26,594 nucleotides of DNA from a virus. The notes below the pieces were generated by a model that did no database searches, was not told the DNA's origin, and was given only the letters and a program-made list of their open reading frames with translations. Position 1 is the first letter of the stretch, and each line of letters begins with the position of its first letter. This document shows, piece by piece, positions 5,901 through 24,531 of the stretch. A program made the translations under genes and the position numbers. The stretch is taken from positions 1-26,594 of IMG/VR virus record IMGVR_UViG_3300048029_000431; one strand, written 5' to 3'.

Positions 5901-6307
5901 ACCTCTTCACCCCGCTTGTTCTTGTCGTAGGGCAGGGCGGTCATTTTCTCTGACGCCTCGGCAACCATCCGCTTGATTGACTCAAGGTTGGCATCCTTGT
6001 GCGCCTCAATGTCCTCTGGGGTGATTGTGATGCTGTTTGGTCGGATAGGCTGACCCTCGCACCTGTTGCAAAACTCAAGCCAGCCCTCAAATTGAAGGCC
6101 GCGCCTCATGGATATCTTTGACCAATCAGGCTTACTGCCGCCGTCCCAACCGTCCAAGACGTTATGGGCATACCGCGCCCGCCACGACTCTCCTCTAGCG
6201 TGAACAACTTTAAGCATTCGCCAATCAGACTTGTCTCCGCAGGATTGGCAGACGCCGGGGGGTTGCTGAAACCCGGAAGGTTTGTAGGTGTCTGGTGCAT
6301 CAAACAT
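5897..6307 (-). CDS. Small zinc-ribbon-like protein (136 aa)
   Basis: The ATG at 6307 has GAGG 9 bases upstream and overlaps the end of the replication initiator by 8 bases; a TTG five codons earlier is the less likely start. The protein has two knuckles, CQSC (residues 20-23) and CNRC (residues 80-83), which could together bind one zinc ion, with a tryptophan-rich stretch between and a charged helical tail. It sits between the initiator and recombination genes, so a nucleic-acid role is plausible. The family is not recognised. Confidence 0.65.
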   Translation of the reverse strand: MFDAPDTYKPSGFQQPPGVCQSCGDKSDWRMLKVVHARGESWRARYAHNVLDGWDGGSKPDWSKISMRRGLQFEGWLEFCNRCEGQPIRPNSITITPEDIEAHKDANLESIKRMVAEASEKMTALPYDKNKRGEEV

Positions 6308-7007
6308 GGTATTTGCCCTCAAATATCTTTGCGTAATTGGCTGGCTTGGTTATCCACTCAAGGTCGGCACGGAACGGGGGCTTCCCGTCACGGCCCTCAA
6401 TGCCGCCGGTTAGGAATTTGGATTGGCTGACGTAGCCGAAATACTTTTCCCAGACTTCAATGCTGGGGAGGTCACCCTCGCGCCACCTCTGCTTAATGTA
6501 TCCCTCCCTCTGCTTGGTCAGCTTGCGAACAGGGGGGAGCATGGGGAGAATCTGGTGATACAGCCCGACAATCTCTTGAACGGGAATCTTTGATGGGGGA
6601 CTACAGGGGGTTATTGTTTTATGTTTGTTATCATGTAGAACAACCGGCGATTCCGCCGCTTCTGAACCGGCGATTTCGCCACTTGCATCCGGCGATTTCG
6701 CCACATGAAGAAACTCGGGGGCTACAGACCAGTACGTTGTTCGATTAAAGCGTTCGGGTTGCCTCGTAACTACATGATTAGCCTCAACTAACCCCTTCAT
6801 TATTCGCCTTAGCTGGTCTACGGACAGGTATTGATGCCACTCGGCCAGTGATTCATAGCTGTGTCGCACCCACCATCTGCCATCAAAATAGTATTCATCC
6901 CCCCCTTGGATTGCTCGCTGAGTCTGAAGGTAGCCAAGGTTGTACAGGACGATGGCCTGATTGATCCCCAAGCGAGCCGCTACCTCTGGATTAAAATGGT
7001 GTGTCAT
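6300..7007 (-). CDS. Phage replication initiator (lambda O-type, winged helix)
   Basis: The 235-residue product has an N-terminal winged-helix region: FNPEVAARLGINQAIVLYNL, then WWVRHSYESLAEWHQYLS, VDQLRRIMKGLVEANHVV and FNRTTYWSV. After a low-complexity linker (about residues 110-140) comes a C-terminal domain with WEKYFGYVSQSKFLTG, KPPFRADLEWITKPANYAKI and EGKY, typical of phage replisome organisers. Such proteins bind the origin and recruit host DnaB. No helicase or loader gene is present here, so host DnaB/DnaC would be needed. The ATG at 7007 overlaps the previous stop as ATGA; a GTG two codons earlier is possible. The call is strong at the level of role. Confidence 0.82.
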   Translation of the reverse strand: MTHHFNPEVAARLGINQAIVLYNLGYLQTQRAIQGGDEYYFDGRWWVRHSYESLAEWHQYLSVDQLRRIMKGLVEANHVVTRQPERFNRTTYWSVAPEFLHVAKSPDASGEIAGSEAAESPVVLHDNKHKTITPCSPPSKIPVQEIVGLYHQILPMLPPVRKLTKQREGYIKQRWREGDLPSIEVWEKYFGYVSQSKFLTGGIEGRDGKPPFRADLEWITKPANYAKIFEGKYHV

Positions 7008-9660: not shown

Positions 9661-9732
9661 TATCATTACGTGAGCGGAGTCAGGCATTTCAAAAGTGTCC
9701 TAATCTGTGTAAGCGGTTGGGATAAACTAAAA

Positions 9733-9747
9733 GATACACCATGTATC
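9733..9747. promoter_or_regulatory. Palindromic operator-like site before repressor gene
   Basis: GATACACCATGTATC has perfect 6-base arms (GATACA/TGTATC) around CCA. It lies 12 bases before the repressor ATG at 9760, where repressor autoregulation or Cro binding would be expected. No second exact copy was found in the control region. Confidence 0.5.
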
Positions 9748-9759
9748 GGGAATGTAAAT

Positions 9760-10116
9760 ATGCCAGACGAAAATTTGTCACCAATTGCACCGTTGATGTC
9801 TGAGGTGTTTGCCGACAATCTGAAACAGTTTATGGAGCAAAACGACATCAGCACTAACGGTGTCGCTTTACGCTCTGGGATCGCGCAGAAGACGCTGTGG
9901 GTCACGATCAACAAGAAGAACATACCGACGCTGGATACAGCAAAGAAAATGTGTGACGCGCTGAACGTCGATATGCGAGTGATGATGAGCCGTTTACTAC
10001 AGCCCTCAGAATTAAATCGCACCAAGATTATTGGCAAGGCCATCGACTCTTTGATTTCTCTCCCGACAGAAAGGGTCGCGGCGGTCCGTGAGGTCATGGA
10101 CGCCTTCTCTAAGTAA
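9760..10116 (+). CDS. C1/Cro-type repressor without protease domain (118 aa)
   Basis: The ATG at 9760 is chosen because it starts the conserved part and has a GGGA 8-9 bases upstream; an in-frame ATG at 9670 would add 30 residues that include the operator. Residues about 17-75 form an HTH_3 fold: VFADNLKQFMEQNDIS, VALRSGIAQKTLWVTINKKN, then IPTLDTAKKMCDALNVDM. The C-terminus (LPTERVAAVREVMDAFSK) is one helix, perhaps for dimerisation. There is no S24/LexA-like autopeptidase domain, so RecA-triggered self-cleavage is not expected. Divergent from the early operon and followed by a terminator, it is the best candidate for the lysogeny repressor. Confidence 0.75.
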   Translation: MPDENLSPIAPLMSEVFADNLKQFMEQNDISTNGVALRSGIAQKTLWVTINKKNIPTLDTAKKMCDALNVDMRVMMSRLLQPSELNRTKIIGKAIDSLISLPTERVAAVREVMDAFSK

Positions 10117-10161
10117 GCAAGCCTTGCATTAAGCACATCTTACTGACACAATAGTGACAAG

Positions 10162-10185
10162 CCCCGATAAGTCGGGGTTAGTTTT
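10162..10185 (+). terminator. Intrinsic terminator after repressor
   Basis: CCCCGA (10162-10167) and TCGGGG (10172-10177) form a perfect 6-bp GC-rich stem with a TAAG loop, followed by TTAGTTTT on the plus strand. It separates the repressor from the recombination/integration genes, implying that the latter have their own promoter or depend on readthrough. Confidence 0.75.
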
Positions 10186-10220
10186 GCATATCCCATGTCA
10201 CATATTGCTAGGAGGGCATT

Positions 10221-10853
10221 GTGAGCAAGAAAGATGACGGCGTGGTTAATATCCACGGAAAGCAATATCTCACTGTCGCGAGGCGAACGAACGATTTTCG
10301 CGAGCGGCATCCTGATTTCGGTATTCACACGGAAATCTTGTCTATTGATGACGCCACGGTGGTGTGTCGGGCAGTGATTACTGATGAGGCTGGTCGCCAA
10401 ATCTCTTCCGGCATTGCAGAGGAGAGTCGAACGTCCAGCCGAATCAATCAGACATCAGCGGTTGAAAACTGTGAGACATCTGCTGTCGGCAGGGCGCTTG
10501 CCTTCTTCGGTATGGCAGGTACAGAGATAGCCAGTGCTGATGAGGTGGCTGGTGCTATCAACCAGCAGAACCAGAACGCGGTTGATGAGGGGTTGATGGC
10601 TCACGCTGTTGCCGTTCGCGAAAACCTAGATGAGATCCACATGATGAAAACCGCCATGCAGGAGGAAGACTTTATGACTGCGGCTGGCATCTTTATGGAT
10701 TGGGATGAGGACACGCTACAGGCATTGCGCCGTGCGCCTTCAAAGGGCGGGGTGTGGACAACATCAGAGGTCGCATTGCTGAGGGCTGATGGCGCTGTCG
10801 GCAAGTGTGTATCAACGATTAAGAAGCAAGACTATGCGGAGGCTCGCGCGTGA
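10221..10853 (+). CDS. Probable single-strand annealing (Rad52/ERF-like) phage recombination protein
   Basis: The GTG start at 10221 has GGAGG five bases before GCATT-GTG. The first about 110 residues carry the pattern seen in phage annealing-type proteins: DFRERHPDFGIHTEILSIDD, V.CRAVITDE.GR.ISSGIAEE, then INQTSAVENCETSAVGRALAF and FGMAGTEIASADEV. The ENCETSAVGRALAF helix is the key match. The C-terminal half is acidic and helical. These proteins bind and anneal single-stranded DNA in phage recombination. It overlaps the next gene as GTGA. I am fairly sure of the family but less sure which named branch (ERF, Sak or a relative) it belongs to. Confidence 0.6.
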   Translation: MSKKDDGVVNIHGKQYLTVARRTNDFRERHPDFGIHTEILSIDDATVVCRAVITDEAGRQISSGIAEESRTSSRINQTSAVENCETSAVGRALAFFGMAGTEIASADEVAGAINQQNQNAVDEGLMAHAVAVRENLDEIHMMKTAMQEEDFMTAAGIFMDWDEDTLQALRRAPSKGGVWTTSEVALLRADGAVGKCVSTIKKQDYAEARA

Positions 10854-11089
10854 AGGCAATCAAGAAACTGATGGTTCCGAAAGGGGAGTACACCGACAAG
10901 CAGACCGGCGAGACCAAGACTAGCTGGCTCAACATCGGGGTGCTTCAGTCGGACGGTAACGGAAAGTACAAGGTCAAGCTGGACAGCATCCCTGTCGGGG
11001 AGTTCAGCGGATGGGTCGAGTGCTTTGATATTGAGCCGCGACAGGGCGGTCAGGGTGGTGGTTCTAACAAAATGGCAGGGTGGGATTAA
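10850..11089 (+). CDS. Small partner of annealing protein, possible OB-fold (79 aa)
   Basis: A GTG at 10850 overlaps the preceding stop (GTGA) with GGAGG 7 bases upstream. The product is beta-rich (MKAIKKLMVPKGEYTDKQTG, SWLNIGVLQSDGNGKYKVKL, IPVGEFSGWVECFDIEP) with a flexible glycine/glutamine-rich tail ending MAGWD. That layout, a small beta domain plus a glycine-rich acidic-tipped tail, resembles single-stranded DNA-binding proteins. Position right after the annealing protein supports a shared substrate. SSB identity is inference. Confidence 0.6.
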   Translation: MKAIKKLMVPKGEYTDKQTGETKTSWLNIGVLQSDGNGKYKVKLDSIPVGEFSGWVECFDIEPRQGGQGGGSNKMAGWD

Positions 11090-11304
11090 TGGATAACAGC
11101 GCATTTTTTAAGCACAGTGAACTGCTTGAGTTCGCAGGGGTAAAGCAAGTGGATTCGCTAATGCGATGGTTAGATAAGCAAAGTATCCCCTACTTGGTTG
11201 ATGCCAAGGGAAGACCAAAGGTAAAGTACGCATCCGTTGAGAAACATTATGTGACCAAGGATGCCGAGGAAGAAAGAATCGGGTTTGCCCCCGTACACCA
11301 GTAG
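11089..11304 (+). CDS. DUF4224-like small DNA-binding protein, possible excisionase (71 aa)
   Basis: The start ATG at 11089 overlaps the previous stop as TAATG. Residues about 5-45 (FFKHSELLEFAGVKQVDSLM, then RWLDKQSIPYLVDAKGRPKV) fit the DUF4224 pattern: E/L-rich helix, turn, R/Q-x-x-WL, short strand and a G-R-P end. Such proteins sit directly before phage integrases and are thought to be excisionase-like. The 3' end overlaps the integrase by 44 bases in another frame. The family is likely; the excision role is inferred from position. Confidence 0.68.
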   Translation: MDNSAFFKHSELLEFAGVKQVDSLMRWLDKQSIPYLVDAKGRPKVKYASVEKHYVTKDAEEERIGFAPVHQ

Positions 11305-12268
11305 GGACAAAGTTCGGGGCGTTGTTTTCCGTCCTTACATGGGGAGGGTGGATGGCAAAATCAGGTGGGGTTCTAGAGTTTGGCTCGCCCCACTTGATGC
11401 CCCTCTTTCAGAAGTCTGGGCCGAGTATGAAGCCCTCCATACAGAGCAACAGCACACCGTAACTTGGCTACTGCAAACCTATTTCGGTAGCCGTCAGTTT
11501 AATAACCTTAGAGTCAAGACCCAGACTGATTACCGCAGTCGCGCCAACACCCTACAAAATAAGCTGATGACTAACGGCAAGCCGTTCGGTCAATTGCTGT
11601 TAACACGGGTAGACCGCTACCTTTTGCGTGAATACCTAGACTTGAGCAGTCATCCGGTCAGCGCCAATCGGCAGATAGCAGTGCTGAGTTCGGCGTGGGC
11701 ATGGGCGCTAGAGCGGTACAAGATTCCCCCCAATGCCTGCAAGGAGGTGAAGCCCAACAAGGAAAAGCCGCGTACTCGGTATGTGAATGACCAAGAATAC
11801 CGCAGGGCAAAGAGCCTTGCTCCTCTCTGGTTGCAAGTCGCGATGGACTTATCGTATATCTGCCGCGCTAGGAGGGGAGAGGTGCTAGCCCTAACCCTTA
11901 ACGACATTCAAGCCGATGGCCTTTTGATTAACCGCAGTAAGGGCAGTAAGGCTGAGGTTACGCAATGGACTCCGGCGCTTCGGTCAGTGGTCGAGAGGGC
12001 GAGGGCGTTGTCAGGGTCGGGGGAATACTTGGTCAGGACTCCTGCCGGACATATCCGTGTGCCGCAGTTTGATTCCGCTTGGCGCAGGCTGATGACAAAG
12101 GTAGCTGAGGCAGGCGGCGCAAAGTTTTCGTATCACGACATCAAAGCCAAGGGCCTATCAGATATGCATGAACCTTGGGCTGGTCACAAGTCCGAATCAA
12201 TGCTGGATACTTACGTCAGAACACCAAGAAAAATCACCCCTGATTACGCAGATGATGCTGACGTTTAA
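11261..12268 (+). CDS. int: Tyrosine integrase
   Basis: The 335-residue protein has an N-terminal arm-binding part (to about 60), a SAM-like core-binding domain (about 65-160) and a catalytic domain. Catalytic residues visible are R204 (CRARRGEVLAL), a lysine near K227/K230, the H292-x-x-K295 box (YHDIKAKG, with Lys where most family members have Arg), H309 (AGHKS) and the nucleophile Y318 (LDTYVR). The HxxK form occurs in a known subgroup of phage integrases. ATG 11261 lies inside the previous gene with a poor ribosome site, so coupling is likely. The attachment core lies 82 bases past its stop. Confidence 0.92.
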   Translation: MPRKKESGLPPYTSRDKVRGVVFRPYMGRVDGKIRWGSRVWLAPLDAPLSEVWAEYEALHTEQQHTVTWLLQTYFGSRQFNNLRVKTQTDYRSRANTLQNKLMTNGKPFGQLLLTRVDRYLLREYLDLSSHPVSANRQIAVLSSAWAWALERYKIPPNACKEVKPNKEKPRTRYVNDQEYRRAKSLAPLWLQVAMDLSYICRARRGEVLALTLNDIQADGLLINRSKGSKAEVTQWTPALRSVVERARALSGSGEYLVRTPAGHIRVPQFDSAWRRLMTKVAEAGGAKFSYHDIKAKGLSDMHEPWAGHKSESMLDTYVRTPRKITPDYADDADV

Positions 12269-12273
12269 ATTCT

Positions 12274-12296
12274 GTTACCCACAGTGTTATCCCACA
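12274..12296 (+). promoter_or_regulatory. Left arm-type integrase sites (candidate)
   Basis: GTTACCCACA (12274-12283) and GTTATCCCACA (12286-12296) are near-identical direct repeats 12 bases apart, between integrase and the attachment core. Related TTATCCCA copies lie to the right of the core, as expected for arm sites bound by the integrase N-terminus. TTACCCACA also resembles a DnaA box at 8 of 9 bases. Confidence 0.45.
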
Positions 12297-12350
12297 AAGG
12301 CGAGTTAATTATTTAGCCTCCCCTCTAGGCCGCATAAACACTAGGTTTGA

Positions 12351-12397
12351 TGGCGCGGAATAGAGGATTCGAACCTCTGACCTTCGGTTTCGTAGGC
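12351..12397 (-). other. attP core: 3' half of tRNA-Arg(ACG)
   Basis: Read on the minus strand, this holds the anticodon loop CTACGAA (anticodon ACG), the 3' anticodon stem ACCGA, variable loop AGGTC, a perfect T-arm AGAGG-TTCGAAT-CCTCT, the acceptor strand ATTCCGC, discriminator G and CCA. The D-arm and 5' acceptor are missing: sequence further upstream does not pair, so it is not a whole tRNA. A tRNA 3' half immediately downstream of an integrase is the classic attP core, which restores the host gene after integration. Homology probably ends at or just before the anticodon loop. Confidence 0.85.
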
Positions 12398-12435: not shown

Positions 12436-12502
12436 TTATGGGATAAAACGAGGGAGTATAGATTAGCTTGAAAGCTAGGCTTGGCGGGACTTTTATCCCA
12501 CA
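12436..12502. promoter_or_regulatory. Right arm-type integrase sites (candidate)
   Basis: TTTTATCCCA occurs inverted at 12439-12448 (as TGGGATAAAA) and direct at 12491-12500, the latter extended to TTTTATCCCACA. They share TTATCCCA with the site at 12287-12294 on the other side of the attachment core. A short palindrome, TAGCTTGAAAGCTA, lies between them at 12464-12477. Confidence 0.45.
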
Positions 12503-12533: not shown

Positions 12534-12776
12534 TCAGGAAACGCGCCACACTCGGTAACTGTCTTCGCCTTCTGGGCGGCGACTAATCCGGTAATCCTCG
12601 GGAAGCCATCCGGCCTTTCGTTGCTGTTGCACAGCGGCCCCCACTCTGGGCGCGTCAGCGCGACTACAGGCAAAAGAATCTCCAACCTCTAGGTCAGACA
12701 GCCATGCCCATTTAGACCCCCTCACGCGCTCCGGTGTGGTCACGGGGATGCCTTTCTCAATTGGTGGTTTAATCAT
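12534..12776 (-). CDS. Small protein of unknown function, end of accessory cluster (80 aa)
   Basis: ATG 12776 has GAGG a few bases upstream and overlaps the previous gene by 8 bases. The product contains LEVGDSFACSRADAPRVGAA, VQQQRKAGW and ISRRPEGEDSYRVWRV: a short beta strand, a helix and two strands. This layout is seen in small phage proteins of unknown role that carry an E/L-VGDSF motif. It is the cluster gene nearest attP. No function can be assigned. Confidence 0.6.
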   Translation of the reverse strand: MIKPPIEKGIPVTTPERVRGSKWAWLSDLEVGDSFACSRADAPRVGAAVQQQRKAGWLPEDYRISRRPEGEDSYRVWRVS

Positions 12777-13092
12777 TGCCGCCTCTCCTCATTGCTGAAT
12801 TAATAAACCATGTTGCACGGGGCGAGTCCCCGCCTATGTTCCATCGGATAGGAACGTCAGACTCAACAGCTATACCGCCATCGTAATATTTCCATGCGTA
12901 TACAGTGGCTCGCACCGTCTCCCCTTCAGCGTCAGTGAATGACAGTCCCCACTCATGCGAGACTTTCTCGGATGGGTCGTAATCAATCCAATCAGGTTTT
13001 CCAAATGCGTGAACCAGATCAGAGTATTTCGCGGTGGTGTACCCTTGCAGGCACGTTCCCGAAATATTTTCGCATTTCTCAAATTTAAGCAT
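12769..13092 (-). CDS. Small conserved-type phage protein (107 aa)
   Basis: The start ATG at 13092 has GAGGAAATTGAA before it; an ATG at 13134 would add 14 residues and lacks a ribosome site. The sequence reads ISGTCLQGYTTAKYSDLVHA, FGKPDWIDYDPSEKVSHEW, then FTDAEGETVRATVYAWKYYD. The L.G...T.Y.DLV..FG.P…EW…F.D…..Y.WK pattern is familiar from small phage proteins in early or accessory regions, but no function is known to me. Overlap with the next gene supports co-expression. Confidence 0.62.
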   Translation of the reverse strand: MLKFEKCENISGTCLQGYTTAKYSDLVHAFGKPDWIDYDPSEKVSHEWGLSFTDAEGETVRATVYAWKYYDGGIAVESDVPIRWNIGGDSPRATWFINSAMRRGGND

Positions 13093-13102
13093 TTCAATTT
13101 CC

Positions 13103-13180
13103 TCAATTAGCAACAAGTGAATAGGCGCAGACAATAAAAAACAGAAACATCGCCGCGCCTACCCAATCCGAATTAATCAC
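13103..13180 (-). CDS. Possible membrane micropeptide (25 aa)
   Basis: A GTG at 13180 overlaps the stop of the zinc-ribbon gene (GTGA), with GAGG ten bases upstream, and the frame ends 10 bases before the next gene's start. The product is VINSDWVGAAMFLFFIVCAY followed by SLVAN, essentially one hydrophobic helix. The tight overlap and hydrophobic nature suggest a real membrane peptide, but the length makes chance possible. Confidence 0.4.
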   Translation of the reverse strand: MINSDWVGAAMFLFFIVCAYSLVAN

Positions 13181-13347
13181 GGGCGCAATTCCTCGCAATC
13201 GATGCAAGCGCCGTAATCATTTATGAAGCCAGATTCTTCAATCTCTCCGCACACTTCGCACTGGCTGAAGTTGTGCGGGATATCTTCGGCATTTGGGCAG
13301 TGGGGATGGTGACCATTTACCCGCCCGCATTCTCCGCACAGGTTCAT
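13177..13347 (-). CDS. Small double zinc-knuckle protein (56 aa)
   Basis: ATG 13347 overlaps the previous stop as ATGA. The 56 residues contain Cys at 4, 7 and 17 with neighbouring histidines (NLCGECGRVNGHHPHC), then Cys at 30, 33, 48 and 51 (CEVCG…CIDCEE). The second set is a classic four-cysteine zinc ribbon; the first could form another with a histidine. The protein is acidic outside the ribbons, so a protein-binding role is as likely as nucleic-acid binding. The family is not recognised. Confidence 0.65.
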   Translation of the reverse strand: MNLCGECGRVNGHHPHCPNAEDIPHNFSQCEVCGEIEESGFINDYGACIDCEELRP

Positions 13348-13616
13348 ATTCCCACCCCCTCGCGATAGTCGGCTGTTTGCTCGGCTTCAATTGCTCGGCG
13401 GGTAATCTCCGCGCGCGCGTCCTGAGTCAATAAGACTTGCTCGGCGTATTCGGTTTGCGGTTGATTGCGGAGCCAAAGGCGAGCGCTCCAAACCATCCGG
13501 TTTATTTGTTCGGGACTGAAGTCAGCGAGAGTTTTACCCCTCGCCGCGTCCATTGTTATCCAATAGTGGCGGGCGTCTTCCTGTAGCCCGTGAACGTATT
13601 GCCCTATCTTGCTCAT
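13344..13616 (-). CDS. Unknown small helical protein (90 aa)
   Basis: The start ATG at 13616 overlaps the previous stop as ATGA, with GGAGGGG shortly upstream; a frame extended to 13646 would run back into the neighbour. The protein is helical, with GKTLADFSPEQINRMVWSAR and a tail of Glu, Ala and Arg (EITRRAIEAEQTADYREGVG). It has no cysteine, membrane segment or known motif. Strict start/stop overlaps with both neighbours argue for a real gene in one transcript. Confidence 0.6.
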   Translation of the reverse strand: MSKIGQYVHGLQEDARHYWITMDAARGKTLADFSPEQINRMVWSARLWLRNQPQTEYAEQVLLTQDARAEITRRAIEAEQTADYREGVGI

Positions 13617-13822
13617 GCCGCGCCCCTCCGCGTTTTGGCTAAACACTCTCCGACGATGTTGCGCATGATCTCGCGCTCCTCATGATCGTGATCTAGTTGC
13701 GCGGATAGGTTTGCATTCATGGCGAGGTGCATTCCTTCGCGCTTGAGTCGGGCCAATTCCTCAACTTGCGCCAGTGTCATCTGGACAAAGGCGCGCGTGA
13801 TTAAATCGGTTTCGTTATTCAT
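13613..13822 (-). CDS. Unknown small helical protein (69 aa)
   Basis: ATG 13822 has GGAG 8 bases upstream. The whole product is predicted helix (MTLAQVEELARLKREGMHLA, then LDHDHEEREIMRNIVGECLA), ending in a basic RRGAA. It starts the run of small genes downstream of the ArdC-like gene and is separated from it by 42 bases. No family is recognised. Confidence 0.58.
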   Translation of the reverse strand: MNNETDLITRAFVQMTLAQVEELARLKREGMHLAMNANLSAQLDHDHEEREIMRNIVGECLAKTRRGAA

Positions 13823-13864
13823 GGCTAAATCTCCCTATTCAGATATTACTAGGTGGGGCCGCAA

Positions 13865-14821
13865 TTAAGCGGCCTGAGTTTGGTTTTCGGGTTGCAACCC
13901 GTGAAGATGGTTGCAAGCGTCTTGTGCGAGCTTGCCAGCGCTGAATATGTACTTGGTGTCAGACTTCAGTGCCGCCAGCCAATTGCCGATGTATTTCACA
14001 TGGTCAACCCGCATCGTTGTCTCAATGCCCAGATCCGCGCACATGAGCATTGCCCCGATCTCCGCGACTAATTCCTCAAACGCATAGCCGCGCTTGCTTC
14101 GATCATCTGAGCGATTGCAACGCGACTTGTGGCCGGTCCAGTGTGTCAGCTCATGCAAGTAAACCGAATAGTATGCTTCGGTCGCCGTGCGGGTGCTGGT
14201 AGCGTGGAATAACTCTTTGCGCGGCATGGTCACCGCATCCAGCGCTGGGGTATAATATGCGCGGCCTTGATCGCTGTGGGTGATGGTCGCGCCAAGATTA
14301 GAAATGAACGCTTCAACGTCCGCGCAAGTGTCAACATCTGAGCGCTTTTTGATCGCTGGCGGCATCCATGGTTTAGCCGGAATGGGCGACTTGTGAGCGC
14401 GCTTTAGCTTGGCGTCTGATTCGGGGGTGCGGAGCGTGACGGATTCAAATGACCAAACCGCTTTTGAAGTGAACCCGCCTACGCGCCATTCATCTTTGCC
14501 GCTGGGTGACTTGTCCGCGTCAACTTTGAATTTTTTTGGCATGGCAAGGTAAAAAGTTGCCGAGTCTGTCACCTGATAGCCAAGGCGCGCCCACCCATCA
14601 TAGGTGCTGTAAAACGTGACGCCCATCATCATCGCTGTGAAAGCATTGGTTCCGGTTGCCGCGTGTCCCGTGTCGGGGTTATACGGTCTGCACCCTGTAG
14701 ACTTGAATGGCATTTCAAATGAGTTGGGATCGAAATCCGGAGCCGATACCGCGTCCGCTATGGCTTGCAGTTTGTCCGCGATTTGATCGTTTAATCGTGC
14801 TGTGTGGTCAATCTTTGACAT
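13865..14821 (-). CDS. ArdC-like antirestriction protein with zincin metallopeptidase domain (318 aa)
   Basis: The ATG at 14821 (GAGG 9 bases upstream) gives 318 residues; a longer frame to 14932 overlaps the neighbouring gene. The N-terminal part (to about 135) matches the ArdC/TraC single-strand-DNA-binding domain (P.STGCRPYN.. at the start, TFYLAMPKKF, WSFESVTL). The C-terminal part has the zincin motif HELTHWTGH (H223, E224, H227), then YAFEELVAEIGAMLMCADLG with E254 as the likely third ligand, and YIGNWLAALK. ArdC proteins protect incoming plasmid or phage DNA from host restriction. All catalytic residues look intact. This is the only recognised function in the cluster. Confidence 0.85.
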   Translation of the reverse strand: MSKIDHTARLNDQIADKLQAIADAVSAPDFDPNSFEMPFKSTGCRPYNPDTGHAATGTNAFTAMMMGVTFYSTYDGWARLGYQVTDSATFYLAMPKKFKVDADKSPSGKDEWRVGGFTSKAVWSFESVTLRTPESDAKLKRAHKSPIPAKPWMPPAIKKRSDVDTCADVEAFISNLGATITHSDQGRAYYTPALDAVTMPRKELFHATSTRTATEAYYSVYLHELTHWTGHKSRCNRSDDRSKRGYAFEELVAEIGAMLMCADLGIETTMRVDHVKYIGNWLAALKSDTKYIFSAGKLAQDACNHLHGLQPENQTQAA

Positions 14822-14858
14822 GGTGTGATTCCTCTTTTTGTGAGCGTTGTGGGGCCGC

Positions 14859-15065
14859 TTATGCGGCGATGTTGTGGATTGTCCAAAGCTCGCCATTCTC
14901 AAAGTAAGCTTGCTCGGCAACCATGTTGGCATGCTCTATAGCGTCCGCGATGCTGTCAAAAATTCGCATTAACGGGCCAGCGTTTTGTAACAATGCGTTA
15001 TCGCACCAGCAAACTTCAAAGCCGCCTTGTGTGCTTGGCTGAATTGTTATTACTTGATCTTGCAT
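14859..15065 (-). CDS. Unknown small protein, first gene of accessory cluster (68 aa)
   Basis: ATG 15065 has TGAGG 10 bases upstream. The sequence opens with beta strands (MQDQVITIQPSTQGGFEVCW) and ends in an amphipathic helix (IADAIEHANMVAEQAYFENG, then ELWTI), a small alpha/beta fold often seen in phage and plasmid accessory proteins. It precedes the ArdC-like gene by 37 bases. Both genes share TTGTGAGCGTT (plus strand 14838-14848 and 15083-15093) just upstream of their ribosome sites. Function unknown. Confidence 0.62.
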   Translation of the reverse strand: MQDQVITIQPSTQGGFEVCWCDNALLQNAGPLMRIFDSIADAIEHANMVAEQAYFENGELWTIHNIAA

Positions 15066-15186: not shown

Positions 15187-15246
15187 TCAATGCTCACCTG
15201 TTTGGTGATTGCAGATATAAATTTCATATGTGTTGTATGTGGTCAT
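15187..15246 (-). CDS. Leader micropeptide (19 aa)
   Basis: ATG 15246 has GAGG 9 bases upstream, a good ribosome site, and encodes MTTYNTYEIYICNHQTGEH. It lies about 50 bases after the candidate promoter and ends just before the arginine-rich micropeptide. It may be a leader peptide or a remnant gene. Confidence 0.38.
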   Translation of the reverse strand: MTTYNTYEIYICNHQTGEH

Positions 15247-15303
15247 ATCAAAGTACCTCTATCAGTGAGCTAGTGAATGCTGGGATAACACCCAACAATG
15301 CGA

Positions 15304-15332: not shown

Positions 15333-15393
15333 GTAATAATTGAAATTATTTTTATCCCCACAGTCGCCGCTGTTATTTGGTCTTTTTATTCAG

Positions 15394-15851: not shown

Positions 15852-16047
15852 TTGCCTGCCTGCGTTGGGCCGGGGGGAGGGGGTTGCGCGCGCCGATTTC
15901 CTCCGGTTCCCACTCTCCCTTACTAAAGCGAAAACGCTGAAACCCACGTGGCTGTATGTCTGAGACGGCGTTAGCCTGTTCGGAGCCAAAGGCTCTGTAA
16001 CTGAATTGGGGTGTTTTTCGGAGGGGTTGCGGGGTTAGTCAGATATG

Positions 16048-17707: not shown

Positions 17708-19786
17708 ATGGCTAAACTTGATAGCAAAGAACCTATTCTAGAACACCTTGGTGTAGAGCATGGCCTTGCAGAATGGATGGAGGGCCTTCTTCAAGAGTGG
17801 AGATGGCACTATGAAGCCAACTATGCTGACAAGCACGAAGAGTACTACCGGCTCTGGAGAGGGATTTACGCCGAACAGGACAAGACTCGCCAATCTGAGC
17901 GTTCTAAGATTATTGCGCCAGCACTACAGCAGGCTGTGGAGTCCGCTGTAGCTGAGATTGAGACGGCATCCTTCTCTCAAGGCTTCATGTTTGACATTGA
18001 AGATCATGACCAGACACAACCAACGCCCCCTCAAGGCCAACAGCCTCAGATGCAGACCCCAGATGCTTTGCAGGGGGCGGCGGTTGCTCCATCAGATGCC
18101 CCTATTATCCGTGATCAACTTCATAAAGACATGGATAGGGCTAATTACAGGGCCGCAATAGGCGAGATCCTTATCAATTCTGCTGTTTTTGGCACAGGAA
18201 TTGGTGAGTTGATGATTGAAGATTCAACAGAGTACATTCCTGCTACTCAACCCCTTAATGAAGCTAGTGGGGCGTCTCTGGTTGAGTACGGCGTAGAGGA
18301 AAGAACCCGTCCTATTATTAAGCTAAACCCTGTTCAGCCTAAAAACCTACTGGTTGACCCCAATGCAACGTGTGTATCTAGTGCAATGGGTGTCTGTGTA
18401 GAGGAGTTTGTGGGGCTACATGCTATTGAGCGACTTCAAGAGCAAGGGGTCTACCGCAGTATAGACATTGGCACAGACCCATCATGCGATGAGATTGATG
18501 CTGACCCTGAAAATGTTGTTCAGCCCCATCATAAAGTAAGAGTTCAGCGGTACTACGGGTTAGTGCCTACTGACTTACTTAAAGATGAAGGCGTTGACTC
18601 TGAATTGCTGGAAGATGGCAAGTACACAGAGGCCGTTGTTGTTGTTGGCAATGGCAAGATCCTCAAAGCTCAATCAAATCCCTATATGTGCAAGGATCGG
18701 CCTATTTGCGCCTTTCCTTGGGACGTAGTACCCAGCCGTTTCTGGGGTCGTGGGGTATGTGAGAAGGGCTATATGTCTCAGAAGGCTTTAGACGCTGAAA
18801 TGAGAGCGCGCATTGACGCACTAGCCTTGACTACGCACCCAATGATGGCGGTGGACGCAACCAGAATCCCAAGGGGAGACAAGTTTGAGGTCAGACCGGG
18901 GAAGATGCTGTTGACCAACGGCGCTCCTCAAGAGGCAATCATGCCATTTAAGTTTGGTCAGGTAGATCAGATCAGTTTTAACCAAGCCCAGAACCTACAG
19001 CTAATGGTTCAGCAGGCTACAGGGGCAATGGACTCCGCTGAGATGGCCAAGGGGCCGTCATCAGACACTACTGCCGCTGGTATTAGCATGAGCATGGGCG
19101 CTGTTATGAAGCGTCAACGCCGAACACTGGTCAACTTCCAAGAATCCTTTTTTAAGCCTCTAATCAAGAAGACTGCTTGGCGTTACATGCAGTTTGATCC
19201 AGAGAAATACCCATCAAAGGACTATCACTTCTCTGTTGTCAGCTCATTGGGCGTAATTGCTAGGGAGTATGAGGTAGGTCAGCTAGCTCAGATTCTTCAG
19301 GTAGTCCCACCAGAAGCTCCGCTACACAATATGTTGATTAAGGCCATCATTGAACACATGAACGTCACTAGCAAAGAGAAGCTATTGGCGCAGATTGATC
19401 AAATGAACCAGCCCAACCCACAGGCTCAAGCCATGCAGGAGCAACAGGCTCAACTGGCGGCGGCATTGCAACAAGCTCAATCAGCAGTACTTAATGCACA
19501 GGCCGCTGAAGCTCAATCGCGGGCTATGAAGTACCAGATGGAAACTCAGATCATGCCGCGTGAGGCACTGCTTAAGTACGCTGATGTCGACAAGGACGGC
19601 AAGGTTGATGATGACTTTGAGAAGAAGATTCGCCTAGCTCAGATGTTGCTTGAAGAAGAAAAATTTAATCTTGAGTCGGAAGAACGTCGATCAGCCATAA
19701 AGAATGCAGAATCAGAGCAAAACGCGCTTCGCCAAATGCTGGGACAGCAAGCCCCACAACCTAATGGAGAGCCTCCAATTCAATGA
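17708..19786 (+). CDS. Portal protein (head-tail connector, 692 aa)
   Basis: Immediately follows terL (AGGA 6 bases before ATG). It is long for a portal and has the podovirus form: an N-terminal helical region (W..HYEANYADKHEEYYRLWR), a Pro/Gln-rich insertion at about residues 101-132, the stem/wing region with GEILINSAVFGTGIGELMIE, VQPKNLLVDPNATC and PFKFGQ.DQISFNQAQNLQ, MDSAEMAKGPSSDTTAAGI, and a Gln/Ala-rich coiled-coil tail. A loop D-V-D-K-D-G-K-V-D-D-D (about 626-636) resembles an EF-hand/dockerin calcium loop. The portal forms the ring at the capsid vertex and docks the terminase. Confidence 0.9.
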   Translation: MAKLDSKEPILEHLGVEHGLAEWMEGLLQEWRWHYEANYADKHEEYYRLWRGIYAEQDKTRQSERSKIIAPALQQAVESAVAEIETASFSQGFMFDIEDHDQTQPTPPQGQQPQMQTPDALQGAAVAPSDAPIIRDQLHKDMDRANYRAAIGEILINSAVFGTGIGELMIEDSTEYIPATQPLNEASGASLVEYGVEERTRPIIKLNPVQPKNLLVDPNATCVSSAMGVCVEEFVGLHAIERLQEQGVYRSIDIGTDPSCDEIDADPENVVQPHHKVRVQRYYGLVPTDLLKDEGVDSELLEDGKYTEAVVVVGNGKILKAQSNPYMCKDRPICAFPWDVVPSRFWGRGVCEKGYMSQKALDAEMRARIDALALTTHPMMAVDATRIPRGDKFEVRPGKMLLTNGAPQEAIMPFKFGQVDQISFNQAQNLQLMVQQATGAMDSAEMAKGPSSDTTAAGISMSMGAVMKRQRRTLVNFQESFFKPLIKKTAWRYMQFDPEKYPSKDYHFSVVSSLGVIAREYEVGQLAQILQVVPPEAPLHNMLIKAIIEHMNVTSKEKLLAQIDQMNQPNPQAQAMQEQQAQLAAALQQAQSAVLNAQAAEAQSRAMKYQMETQIMPREALLKYADVDKDGKVDDDFEKKIRLAQMLLEEEKFNLESEERRSAIKNAESEQNALRQMLGQQAPQPNGEPPIQ

Positions 19787-22700
19787 ATGCCCCTGTTAAA
19801 CCTCAAGGGCTTGGCCTAGCTTCTATTATTGCGGTAATACGCAAGGAGATTGAGCAGGCTAAAACTGAGGGGCCACAGGGAGCAGATGGCAAAGAGGGCG
19901 CCAAAGGTGAGCGCGGTGCAAAAGGTGACACTGGCCCTCAAGGAAAGGTTGGCCCTAAAGGTGGGAACGGCAAGCAAGGCAAGGCCGGTAAGGATGGTAA
20001 AGACGGCAAGGATGGTGAGGACGGCGTTGGCATAAAAGAAATTCATCAGGATGGCGATGACACCATTGTTATCACAATGACTGATGGTGAGGTCTATGAG
20101 CTTGAAATGCCAAAGGGTGAAGGCACGGAGGTTCGCTATCACTCTTCAGGTGGCGGCGGCTCTAGTGGCACTGTTGATCTAGCCCCTTATGTATTGCGCC
20201 CAACTTCTAGGATGTCAGGCTGGCTGGCTTATCGTGAAGACGGTAGTAAGGGCGAGTGGACGCCTATAACTACTGACCTTGTCGCTGTTAACCCAAATCA
20301 GTTTAGGGATGCCAAAGGTAGGTTTGCGCCAACACCTAAAGAGCTTGAGGGCATTGATAACCAGCGCGATGTTAATGAATTCTTGTATGGGAAGATACAA
20401 GAGGTAGGCGGCGAGCATGAAGACTTTGCTACTCAGGAATCTTTGGCTAATGAAGCGGAGATGCGCCGCACGAAGGATGATCTTCTTCAAGACCAGATCA
20501 ACAGCAATCAAAGCCAGATAGATCAAATACAAGAGAAAGGCTACGACGATACTGAAATCCGCGCTCTGATTGATGACGAGGTTCTCAATCGCTCGCTTGC
20601 GGACATTGGTGTGCGTGACGGCTTGCAACATCAGATTGACATCCTCAAGCAATATTCGTTTAGCGAGTTAGATGACAAGATCAACATTGAGAGCGAGACT
20701 CGCCGCGTTGCTGACCAAGGATTGCAAGCTGAGATTACTTCACTTGCTATCACCTTGTCAGAAGAATCAAATCAAAGAAAAAGCACCGATACTGAGTTAC
20801 AGGGTCAGATAGATTCTCTTGAAGCATACGATGACACAGAGATTAAGGAAGGGCTTTCTGCTGAGATCACTGCTAGGGAAGAAGGTGATACCAACTTACA
20901 GAGCCAGATAGATGCTATCTCTGAAAAAGGCTATGACGATACCGAGATCAGAGAAGGACTTGCCAAAGAGTCTGAAGACAGGAAAGAAGCAGATCTGGCC
21001 CTTGCCAAGCAAGTACAGGATGAAAAGACTGAGAGATCACTAGCCGACATTGGTTTGAGAGACAGCCTACAGGCTAACATTGATGCCATTGAGATCCCCA
21101 GCTTAGATGGTTACGCCACGGAAGAATATGTAGACGGGGCAATCGACGCCATTGAGTTCCCTGAGACAGACTTATCAGAATACGCAAAGGCTGAGTATGT
21201 TGATGCTGGTGACGCAAACCTACAGACTCAGATAGATAACATAGAAATCCCCAGTATTGATGGTTTAGCTACAGAGGAGTGGGTCACTGGAGAGATTGAA
21301 GCAATAGAATTTCCTGAGACAGACTTAACTAACTACTACACCAAGGGCGAGGTTGATAAGTCTCAGCAAGACCAAGATGCCTTAATAGCTGAGAACACAA
21401 AATCCATTGGGGATGAGGCTCAAGCCCGATCCGAAGCTGATGCGGCCCTTGACGCAAAGATTGATGCAATCGAAATACCCAGCCTTGAGGGTTATGCCAC
21501 CGAAGAGTACGTTGATGACGCAGTAGGGGCAATAGAATTTCCTGAGACTGATCTCACTGCCTACGCAAAAACGGAGTACGTTGACGCAGGCGATAGCAAC
21601 CTACAAGAGCAAATCGACGGGATTGAAATACCCAGCCTTGATGGGTACGCCACAGAAGGATGGGTATCTGACCAGATAGACGCTATCCCCGAAACAGATC
21701 TTTCTAATTACTACACTAAGACTGAGGTTGATGAGTCTCAAAGCACTCAAGATGACAGGATTACTGTTAACGAGGGCGGGATAGCTTCAAATGCTCAGTC
21801 TATTGAAGTAGAGGCAGAGGTTAGGGAGCAGGAGGACAATCACCTACAGGCAGAAATAGATCAGATAGCACTGGCGCTTGAGGCGCTACTGGTTCAAAGG
21901 GAAGCAGGCCAGTGGAAGTACATTGGCTTTTCTGGTGACAACATCCCCCGAAATCCCGGAGAGTTTTCTCTCCTATCTGATGATCTCTCATCTTCTGAGA
22001 ATAACATCACAATCAACCAGACTGACCTTGGTGATAAGTTTCATGGGTTTGCTGGTGTAGCTGTAGGCGATTATGTAGAGATTGTTGACCTTGATAAGCC
22101 AGATGAGTACGCCCTGTTTATTGTAGACAGCGAGCCTAATGGTACTGGCATTGTCTCAATGAACCTGAAGCTCAAGGACAAGGGTAATAACTTCCTTGTC
22201 GGCACTACCTGTGAGATTAGATTTTTCCAGTTAAACGAGCAGGATCTGGACTTAACAGAGCTTGATGCTAGATACCTAACAAAGAAGGGCGGAAAGACTG
22301 ACGGTATTCTTATCCTTGGATATGATGAGGAAGTAACAAACAATGAGGCGGCGGCTCAGATTGGCTTTGTTAAGACGCATGTTGACGAAGCCATACAGAG
22401 AATCCCGCCACCTGACCTGTCTGCTTATGCGTTAACAGAGTACGTTGACGATGCTGATCTAAGCCTCCAGCAACAGATCGACGCCATTGAAATCCCTAGT
22501 CTTGATGGCTATGCCACAGAGGAATACGTGGATAGCGCCGTCGATAGCATTGAATTCCCTGAGACAGACCTTTCTAATTACTACACCAAGCAGGAAGTGA
22601 ATGAGTCACAGCAGTCCCAAGACAGCCTGATAGCTGGGAATACAAGCTCTATTGAAGGCGAAGCGCAAGCCAGAGCAGATGCTGACACTGCCCTTGATGC

Positions 22701-24531
22701 GAAGATCGACGCCATTGAGATACCCAGCTTAGAGGGCTACGCGACAGAGGATTACGTTGATACTGCAATTGAGGGGATTGAATTCCCTGAAACTGACCTT
22801 ACCGAATATGCCAAAACAACCTACGTTGATTCCGCTGATGCGTCATTGCAGGGGCAGATTGACGCGCTTGAAGCGTATGATGATTCTGGCATTAAGCAGG
22901 GACTTGCTGATGAGGTTGTTGCAAGGGAGACGGGTGACGCTGATCTACAGGGTCAAATAGATGCTATAGAAATCCCCAGCCTAGATGGGTATGCAACGGA
23001 AGAATGGGTATCTGGTCAGATAGATGCCATCCCTGAGACTGATCTAACTGAGTATGCCAAGACTGATTATGTTGATGTCGCTGATCAGGGCCTGCAATCC
23101 CAGATTGATGCGCTTGAAATACCTAGCCTTGAGGGTTACGCCACAGAGGAATATGTTGATACAGCTATCGACGCTATTGAATTCCCTGAAACTGACCTGT
23201 CAGCGTATGCAAAGACCGAATATGTTGACGCCGCTGACGCTTCATTACAGCAACAGATAGATGATATTGATATTCCTAGCTTAGAAGGCTATGCAACTGA
23301 GGAATATGTCGATACTGCTGTTGATGCAATAGAGTTTCCAGAGACAGACCTATCTGACTATTACACAAAGGGAGAGGTTGACGCCTCTCAGCTATCTCAG
23401 AACGAGAAGATTACAGCCAATGAGCAGGGCGTTGCCAAGAACAAAGGCGATATTGCTTACCTTCAGACGGGCATTGACGCAAACGCGGCGGGCGTTGATA
23501 AGAATAAAGGCGATATCGCTTTCTTACAGTCATCCATTGACACTAATGCGGAGGGTGTCGAGAAGAATAAGAATGACATTGCGTATTTGCAGACCGGGAT
23601 TGACGCCAATGCAGGAGGGATAGAGAAGAACAAAGGCGACATTCTCATCCTTGATGGGGATATTAAAGACAACACGGCGGCTATTGAGGGTGAGGCACAG
23701 ACAAGGGCTGATGCTGATGCTGGCTTACAGAGCCAAATTGACGCCATTGAAGTACCCAGCATTGATGGGCTGGCTACTGAAGACTATGTTGATGGTGCGA
23801 TTGACGCCATTGAGTTTCCAGAGACAGACCTTTCTGGTCTGGTCAGCAAGACCGGCGGCGATGACATGGAGGGGCCGCTTCATGTTAAGGGCCACAGCGG
23901 TGACAGTCGAGGCACTAGCCGAGTTAAGACCCTTGGCGTTTTCTCTGATTCAAGCTCCGCTCTCCGTTTAGGGACTACGACTGACCGCGTTTACATTGAA
24001 GACGATAACACTAAGTTTAACGGTGGTGTGCTGGTCAACAACATTGGCCCCAAGACTGAAGACGGCAGGGGCGTCACGCTCAATGTCGAGGGAACTAACG
24101 ACAAGCATCTGGTAACTAAAAAGTACGTTGATAATGCGGTTGACGCTATTGAGATTCCTGAGTCTCCCGACCTATCTAATTACGTTTCCAAGACAGCCGG
24201 TGACCAGACCATGACAGGGCCGCTCACGATAAGTGGGCTTGGCACATGGAAGGGGTCACGGATTAAGCTTGATTACGTTACAGCGAACAGCGAGTCAAGC
24301 ATTCTGAAATTCGGCACGCCAGAAAACGAGGAAAATCTGCGGGTCTACAAAGACAAAGTTAAAATAAGCTCCGTGCCGCTCCTCTTAAAAACAATTCACG
24401 GGTTTGCGAGCGGTCATGGAACTTATTACGAGGGAGCGTATACCGAGCCCAATCACATAGCCACAAAGAAGGATGTAGACGAGGCTATGCGACAGATCCA
24501 AGCCCTTAAGGACGAGCTGAGGAAAACGTAA
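19783..24531 (+). CDS. Collagen-like modular tail/virion fibre (1582 aa)
   Basis: Starts in a 4-base overlap with portal. In order: an N-terminal helix (1-29), 17 collagen-type Gly-X-Y triplets (G30 to G81), a beta region with GGGGSSG linker, coiled-coil repeats with YDDTEI, ten copies of a module around SLDGYATEEYVD..IDAIEFPETDL (from about residue 436 to 1335), an inserted globular domain (about 702-870), three to four 21-residue NKGDIAYLQTGIDANAAGV units (about 1219-1288), then beta-rich end domains with TGPLTISG and a short C-terminal coiled coil. Trimeric fibres use exactly these elements to bind host surfaces. Placement between portal and scaffold is unusual. Receptor and enzyme activity are unknown. 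Confidence 0.85.
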   Translation: MNAPVKPQGLGLASIIAVIRKEIEQAKTEGPQGADGKEGAKGERGAKGDTGPQGKVGPKGGNGKQGKAGKDGKDGKDGEDGVGIKEIHQDGDDTIVITMTDGEVYELEMPKGEGTEVRYHSSGGGGSSGTVDLAPYVLRPTSRMSGWLAYREDGSKGEWTPITTDLVAVNPNQFRDAKGRFAPTPKELEGIDNQRDVNEFLYGKIQEVGGEHEDFATQESLANEAEMRRTKDDLLQDQINSNQSQIDQIQEKGYDDTEIRALIDDEVLNRSLADIGVRDGLQHQIDILKQYSFSELDDKINIESETRRVADQGLQAEITSLAITLSEESNQRKSTDTELQGQIDSLEAYDDTEIKEGLSAEITAREEGDTNLQSQIDAISEKGYDDTEIREGLAKESEDRKEADLALAKQVQDEKTERSLADIGLRDSLQANIDAIEIPSLDGYATEEYVDGAIDAIEFPETDLSEYAKAEYVDAGDANLQTQIDNIEIPSIDGLATEEWVTGEIEAIEFPETDLTNYYTKGEVDKSQQDQDALIAENTKSIGDEAQARSEADAALDAKIDAIEIPSLEGYATEEYVDDAVGAIEFPETDLTAYAKTEYVDAGDSNLQEQIDGIEIPSLDGYATEGWVSDQIDAIPETDLSNYYTKTEVDESQSTQDDRITVNEGGIASNAQSIEVEAEVREQEDNHLQAEIDQIALALEALLVQREAGQWKYIGFSGDNIPRNPGEFSLLSDDLSSSENNITINQTDLGDKFHGFAGVAVGDYVEIVDLDKPDEYALFIVDSEPNGTGIVSMNLKLKDKGNNFLVGTTCEIRFFQLNEQDLDLTELDARYLTKKGGKTDGILILGYDEEVTNNEAAAQIGFVKTHVDEAIQRIPPPDLSAYALTEYVDDADLSLQQQIDAIEIPSLDGYATEEYVDSAVDSIEFPETDLSNYYTKQEVNESQQSQDSLIAGNTSSIEGEAQARADADTALDAKIDAIEIPSLEGYATEDYVDTAIEGIEFPETDLTEYAKTTYVDSADASLQGQIDALEAYDDSGIKQGLADEVVARETGDADLQGQIDAIEIPSLDGYATEEWVSGQIDAIPETDLTEYAKTDYVDVADQGLQSQIDALEIPSLEGYATEEYVDTAIDAIEFPETDLSAYAKTEYVDAADASLQQQIDDIDIPSLEGYATEEYVDTAVDAIEFPETDLSDYYTKGEVDASQLSQNEKITANEQGVAKNKGDIAYLQTGIDANAAGVDKNKGDIAFLQSSIDTNAEGVEKNKNDIAYLQTGIDANAGGIEKNKGDILILDGDIKDNTAAIEGEAQTRADADAGLQSQIDAIEVPSIDGLATEDYVDGAIDAIEFPETDLSGLVSKTGGDDMEGPLHVKGHSGDSRGTSRVKTLGVFSDSSSALRLGTTTDRVYIEDDNTKFNGGVLVNNIGPKTEDGRGVTLNVEGTNDKHLVTKKYVDNAVDAIEIPESPDLSNYVSKTAGDQTMTGPLTISGLGTWKGSRIKLDYVTANSESSILKFGTPENEENLRVYKDKVKISSVPLLLKTIHGFASGHGTYYEGAYTEPNHIATKKDVDEAMRQIQALKDELRKT
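21088..23835 (+). repeat. Tandem coding repeats of the fibre gene
   Basis: Ten diverged copies of a roughly 50-residue unit (IEIPS.[DE]GYATE…AIEFPETDL, followed by either YAKTEYVD..D..LQ.QID or YYTK.EVD.SQ) lie in this stretch, interrupted by one globular domain and a block of 63-bp NKGDIAYLQ units (about 23437-23645). Neighbouring units keep high nucleotide similarity, so recombination between them is likely to change fibre length. Confidence 0.85.

Follow-up and report, generated by a model that had tools for sequence, protein, structure and literature searches.

An ArdC-like gene in an exchangeable leftward operon beside the terminase genes of uncultivated tailed phages

Eight leftward genes (15065 to 12534), one of them encoding an ArdC-like protein, lie between the attachment site and the late genes of a phage and raise the question of what such a cluster is for: cargo picked up by a prophage, part of the replication machinery, or a set of genes directed at the host. 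The window analysed here, i.e. the whole stretch of 26,594 bp, is a linear IMG/VR virus contig, and its gene content is that of a temperate phage. The closest relatives of its TerL are metagenomic, with isolates matching weakly, and the group is one of new, uncultivated tailed phages. Neither a host nor a prophage emerged from two scans of GTDB genomes (by terminase alignment and with a 37-bp attP core), and searches of the window with Rfam and with PADLOC, which covers defence systems, returned nothing. The landmarks around the cluster are the following:

9432 to 4678, leftward: replication operon (ParB-like, replication initiator, NinB, and NinG)
9670 to 12268, plus strand: repressor-like gene, recombination/SSB-like block, and integrase
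12345 to 12390, minus strand: attP core, a 46-bp tRNA 3' end (tRNA-Arg-like)
from 16011: late genes, beginning with the terminase small subunit

Within the cluster, the genes are, in order of reading:

14859 to 15065, minus strand: 68-aa protein, the first substantial gene of the operon; sub-threshold DUF2761 match only
13865 to 14821, minus strand: ArdC-like protein of 318 aa, with a divergent ArdC N-terminal (ssDNA-binding-type) domain and a C-terminal zincin metallopeptidase domain
13613 to 13822, minus strand: 69-aa helical protein with a homologue in L013 (72%); dN/dS 0.15
13344 to 13616, minus strand: 90-aa protein with a W-x-A-R-L-W-L-R motif; dN/dS 0.10–0.28
13177 to 13347, minus strand: 56-aa zinc-ribbon-like protein (CxxC pairs), 70% in L012 and L034; dN/dS 0.14; sub-threshold DUF7695/DZR matches
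13103 to 13180, minus strand: 25-aa single-pass membrane micropeptide, its GTG start overlapping the stop of the preceding gene
12769 to 13092, minus strand: 107-aa protein from an orphan family that is widespread in phages; dN/dS 0.05–0.14
12534 to 12776, minus strand: 80-aa final gene of the operon, with homologues in L011, L013, L047, L019, L005, and L030; dN/dS 0.08–0.21

All of the minus-strand reading frames named in the initial annotation are present, and their spacing fits the single transcript proposed there: ATGA overlaps join the 69- and 90-aa genes and the 90- and 56-aa genes, a GTGA overlap joins the 56-aa gene to the membrane peptide, the 107- and 80-aa genes overlap by 8 nt, and spacers of ~40 nt flank ArdC, as would be expected of genes transcribed together. 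Every small gene that could be judged is under purifying selection against relatives (dN/dS 0.05–0.28), ArdC stands at 0.03, and because these values are low, we regard the 80-, 107-, 56-, 90-, and 69-aa genes and ArdC as real. The membrane micropeptide singled out earlier recurs in three relatives (L011, 80%; L047, 81%; L013, 55%); its dN/dS of 1.7 derives from one synonymous and five other differences in a peptide too short to judge. A search for homologues of the 68-aa gene found none outside near-identical copies. What had been called a double zinc knuckle is indeed a protein with Cys pairs (56 aa), but its CxxC pairs resemble a zinc ribbon and are not zinc knuckles of the CCHC type.

The ArdC-like protein is the only member of the cluster with a known anti-defence function. 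Its program-listed frame of 355 aa starts too far upstream, because homologues begin at ATG 14821 (318 aa). The HELTH motif occupies H223–H227, and H223-E224-H227 and E254 are invariant in 14 sequences; with a match to PF18818 (MPTase-PolyVal) of 139.6 bits (E 7e-41), the C-terminal zincin domain is certain on sequence grounds. The N-terminal domain reaches 14.9 bits against Pfam ArdcN, under the cut-off of 22.6, whereas relatives occupying the same slot score 51–73 bits. An AlphaFold model built with 14 relatives (mean pLDDT 78) nevertheless matches the ArdC of R388 (6I89/6SNA; Foldseek) over its full length and both domains, with an E of 1e-16 and TM of 0.69–0.71, which places the N-terminal domain there by predicted fold rather than by profile. 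The earlier description of an intact ArdC-like peptidase with HELTH and E254 thus holds, the two domains being supported by PF18818 and the predicted fold.

With the ArdC of R388/pSa (6I89, 6SNA), the window protein shares both domains, the HExxH and glutamate-helix residues, and a length of ~300 aa, at 25–26% identity in the structural alignment with R388 ArdC; it differs in its divergent N-domain and in being carried by a dsDNA tailed phage. It also matches the anti-restriction proteins of phrog_7245 (E 7e-52; e.g. in the Caulobacter phiCbK group), which are of the same sequence family at ~33% identity, although these belong to another phage type and gene neighbourhood. The window ArdC is therefore an additional member of a known family, already annotated in other phages. 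R388 ArdC binds ssDNA and counters HsdRMS, its protease activity being dispensable (PMC7213743); by analogy, the protein of the window phage may bind ssDNA and protect against type I restriction. One ArdC among the relatives is broken: that of G007 is split into two frames (L123:6907-7763), by sequencing error or decay. G011 seemed to carry two ArdC genes; we discarded the second, which stems from a duplicated contig end (95.8% over 3 kb).

How stable is this gene set? Comparison of the locus across relatives, a check suggested with the initial annotation, revealed strong turnover: in 20 related loci, the 193 operon genes fall into 103 families, of which 72 are singletons, these counts being approximate owing to a simple gene caller and to some contigs being near-duplicates or cut short. 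The cluster is not freely random; several families hold a fixed order, the recurring one being ArdC, the 90-aa protein, the zinc ribbon, the 107-aa protein, and the 80-aa protein (families 0, 1, 2, 4, and 3). The 90-aa family is among the commonest in the slot (14 of the 20 loci) and is in some of them fused to the zinc-ribbon protein.

ArdC is present in 15 of the 20 loci, and the gene itself is swapped between phages, its identity not tracking that of TerL in sequence comparisons: the window and L025 agree at 80% in TerL and 32% in ArdC, L025 and L124 at 77% and 96%, and the window and L013 at 90% and 96%. No ArdC domain was detected across the whole contigs of L011, L012, and L034, whose terminase genes are closely related. 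Near the 5' end, three ArdC-less contigs of two phage types (L011 of one, L016 and L047 of the other) carry another orphan family, phrog_10208/12228, absent from every ArdC carrier in the set; its members at L047:2378-2716 and L011:8471-8830 have the motif HHExFNxDYYIIGTYxAxxWL, and the family also occurs in Lactococcus and Enterococcus phages. Two further proteins of the slot may be recorded. A 298-aa DGQHR/ParB-like protein (phrog_5931) ends the operon in five relatives (L012, at 5922-6818, L025, L034, L123, and L124), and a small operon protein with a conserved Cys near its start (phrog_3754; L013:7051-7416, L070:4180-4605) possibly has a cysteine-peptidase-like fold.

This pattern bears on whether ArdC is anti-restriction at all, or instead serves replication or recombination as a DNA-binding or peptidase factor, or is a polyvalent-type protein packaged in the virion. 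The typical setting of ArdC-N domains is the handling of ssDNA during conjugation, and zincin domains are common among phage proteins that are injected (PMC5512222); moreover, where the integrase is missing, the operon adjoins annealing-protein-like and SSB-like genes. Yet a gene absent from the siblings L011, L012, and L034 and swapped in others is unlike a replication factor, and the protein stands alone with two domains, in no large fusion and outside the late operon. We consider such a role doubtful, at about one chance in five.

The position of the cluster is the next point at issue. It had been placed between attP and the late operon, in a common spot for exchangeable cargo. The attP itself is well founded, since its 46-bp core is identical in the window, L011, and L047 while the flanks have diverged, and both position and turnover are as described, but the tie to attP does not hold. 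Integrase was not detectable in G001, G007, G008, G012, G015, or G016 by searches with the protein and phrog_1 (used in place of PF00589, which misses the integrase of G004), and all six retain the operon. These relatives appear complete or nearly so, and in them the operon occupies an unchanged position next to the terminase genes; what stays constant beside it is thus the packaging region. In L013 (4128-4993), inverted SSB-like and annealing-protein-like genes directly follow the operon where the window has its integrase.

These observations weigh against the idea that the genes are morons, lysogenic-conversion cargo that was acquired at the attachment site and benefits the lysogen, e.g. by excluding other phages. 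A location between attP and the late genes, a composition unlike that of the late genes, and variable gene content would all suit such cargo, but the operon keeps its place in relatives with no detectable integrase, including both contigs with exact terminal repeats, and its genes are packed into one unit behind a common promoter, where morons would be single genes, each with a promoter and terminator of its own. We consider this origin improbable.

The compositional difference was confirmed along the window: CGCG plus GCGC amount to 27.3/kb in the operon vs 3.9–13.9/kb elsewhere (rank 3 of 241 sliding positions), richer than the late genes as first reported, and not above the expectation from the operon's own trinucleotides. 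The figure is 16–27/kb in the close relatives L011, L013, L017, L019, and L047 and 0.6–9/kb in distant ones; being confined to close relatives, the bias is a signature of the genes' lineage and not of the slot. A separate feature is the repeat TGGGATAA(A/C)A, which flanks attP on both sides (12285-12294, 12439-12448, and 12491-12500), recurs near the operon promoter (15281-15290 and 15350-15359), and has 12 matches in the window at up to one mismatch vs 2.8 expected; these are possibly integrase arm sites or operators.

If the packaging region is the fixed neighbour, the 945-bp gap between operon and terminase genes deserves attention. It contains the following elements:

15187 to 15246, minus strand: 19-aa reading frame with a ribosome-binding-like site; in L011 and L047, the start codon of an operon gene lies there
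15278 to 15295, minus strand: inverted repeat GTTGGG-TGTTA-TCCCAGC, which follows closely on the promoter, found with small changes in the window, L011, and L047
15304 to 15332, minus strand: candidate sigma-70-type promoter, TTGACA-17-TACCGT
15931 to 15966, plus strand: 36-bp element containing the palindromes CCACGTGG and GTCTGAGAC; the terminase small subunit gene lies downstream of it

The promoter-like sequence TTGACA-17-TA(C/T) is conserved before different first genes: the operons of L011 and L047 open with genes other than that of the window, and there the -35 box is invariant and the spacing is kept. The loose pattern occurs once in the window vs 0.45 expected, and a stricter promoter scan did not report it. 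The inverted repeat is a possible operator or leader hairpin, and the 19-aa frame may encode a leader peptide or be what is left of a gene since replaced. The 36-bp element is conserved at 84–100% in seven relatives (L013, L014, L011, L016, L023, L039, and L047) and partially in L017 and L037, where the remaining gap hardly aligns; it is a candidate packaging site.

Genome ends may also lie in this gap. Exact direct terminal repeats fall there in two relatives without integrase, of 211 bp in G001 (37,421 bp) and 179 bp in G007 (36,202 bp), although exact overlaps may also come from circular assembly. Both ends are in the gap for 4 of the 11 contigs of at least 33 kb (G001, G007, G012, and G016), while the near-complete G004, G008, G010, and G015 end elsewhere; because the gap is also hypervariable, contig ends in it support, but do not prove, genome ends there. 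A common terminus at the contig ends of short relatives was sought and rejected, as these share no single end sequence. In lambda and T7, packaging starts at the terminase side; if genome ends lie in the gap and packaging proceeds likewise, the ArdC side would therefore enter the cell first. In T7-like marine phages, ArdC is the second gene of the HTVC011P record and the first of CRP-804, ahead of integrase and RNA polymerase and with terminase near the opposite end, although these record starts may be linearised by convention.

Taken together, we think it probable, though by no means assured, that the operon is an early-expressed, fast-exchanging host-takeover region beside the packaging site, behind a conserved promoter, in which ArdC guards incoming DNA. 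Transcription would run leftward, away from the packaging region, from the promoter in the gap, presumably early in infection. The N-terminal domain of ArdC would bind incoming phage DNA and hold off type I (and perhaps other) restriction enzymes until that DNA has been modified or replicated. As in R388, the peptidase domain would probably not be needed for this protection. The small neighbouring genes, swapped among phages, would probably tune other host functions or defences. If, as two relatives suggest, the genome ends fall within the gap, the operon would be first into the cell and would correspond to T7 gene 0.3 (Ocr) and to the leading region of conjugative plasmids. A point against this reading is that the DNA on which R388 ArdC acts comes in single-stranded, while that of the phage is double-stranded.

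The T7 early region with gene 0.3 likewise has small exchangeable genes and an anti-restriction gene near the front, pointing away from the terminase side; unlike in T7, the anti-restriction protein here is ArdC and not a DNA mimic, the phage has an integrase, and the order of entry is deduced. The anti-defence islands of plasmid leading regions (PMC11541004) also place an anti-restriction gene amid many small uncharacterised genes near the presumed entry end, but the window is a phage with one recognised anti-defence gene, where such an island would have two or more: among the anti-defence families sought in the operon and the relatives' versions tested, ArdC alone was recognised. Only ArdC has a known anti-defence function, and we infer roles for the other genes. 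That the small genes are unrelated filler at a recombination-prone gap, with ArdC alone mattering, suits the 72 singletons among 103 families but is very unlikely given the purifying selection on all those that could be judged and the conserved order of families 0, 1, 2, 4, and 3.

That the ArdC gene is genuine and its arrangement fits a known strategy is a solid, mostly expected finding; what is new is the exchange pattern and the integrase-independent slot. In a large group of uncultivated phages, a plasmid-type anti-restriction protein is encoded in an exchangeable operon of early type, and its gene keeps one position although phages swap it. With a conserved promoter and ~100 gene families, the slot is a promising place to look for new host-takeover and anti-defence proteins.

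Within the operon, the best new candidate, and a concrete one for such proteins, is the 107-aa orphan family (consensus GT..L...FG.P....KV..EW....TxYxWK....W.IGG), found in at least 41 viral contigs of up to 319 kb. In the alignment, K43, W48, Y65, W67, K68, and G87 are near-invariant. The confident model of the window protein (pLDDT 86) has no solved-structure match in the PDB (best E 0.17); the proteins that it does match are all viral and either unnamed or uncharacterised. In phage ct2os315, a family member comes directly after ArdC in an operon divergent from TerL, and in L048 the two share one operon; these cases are suggestive only, because none of 16 other carriers has a detectable ArdC domain, so that a wider association found no support. 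Tentatively, the family may be a virus-specific fold in unrelated tailed phages, serving host takeover or anti-defence and acting beside ArdC, here and in ct2os315, against the same defence.

Farther along the window, 19783-24531 encodes a fibre protein of 1,582 aa with a collagen-like start and many repeated YATEEYVD-type units.
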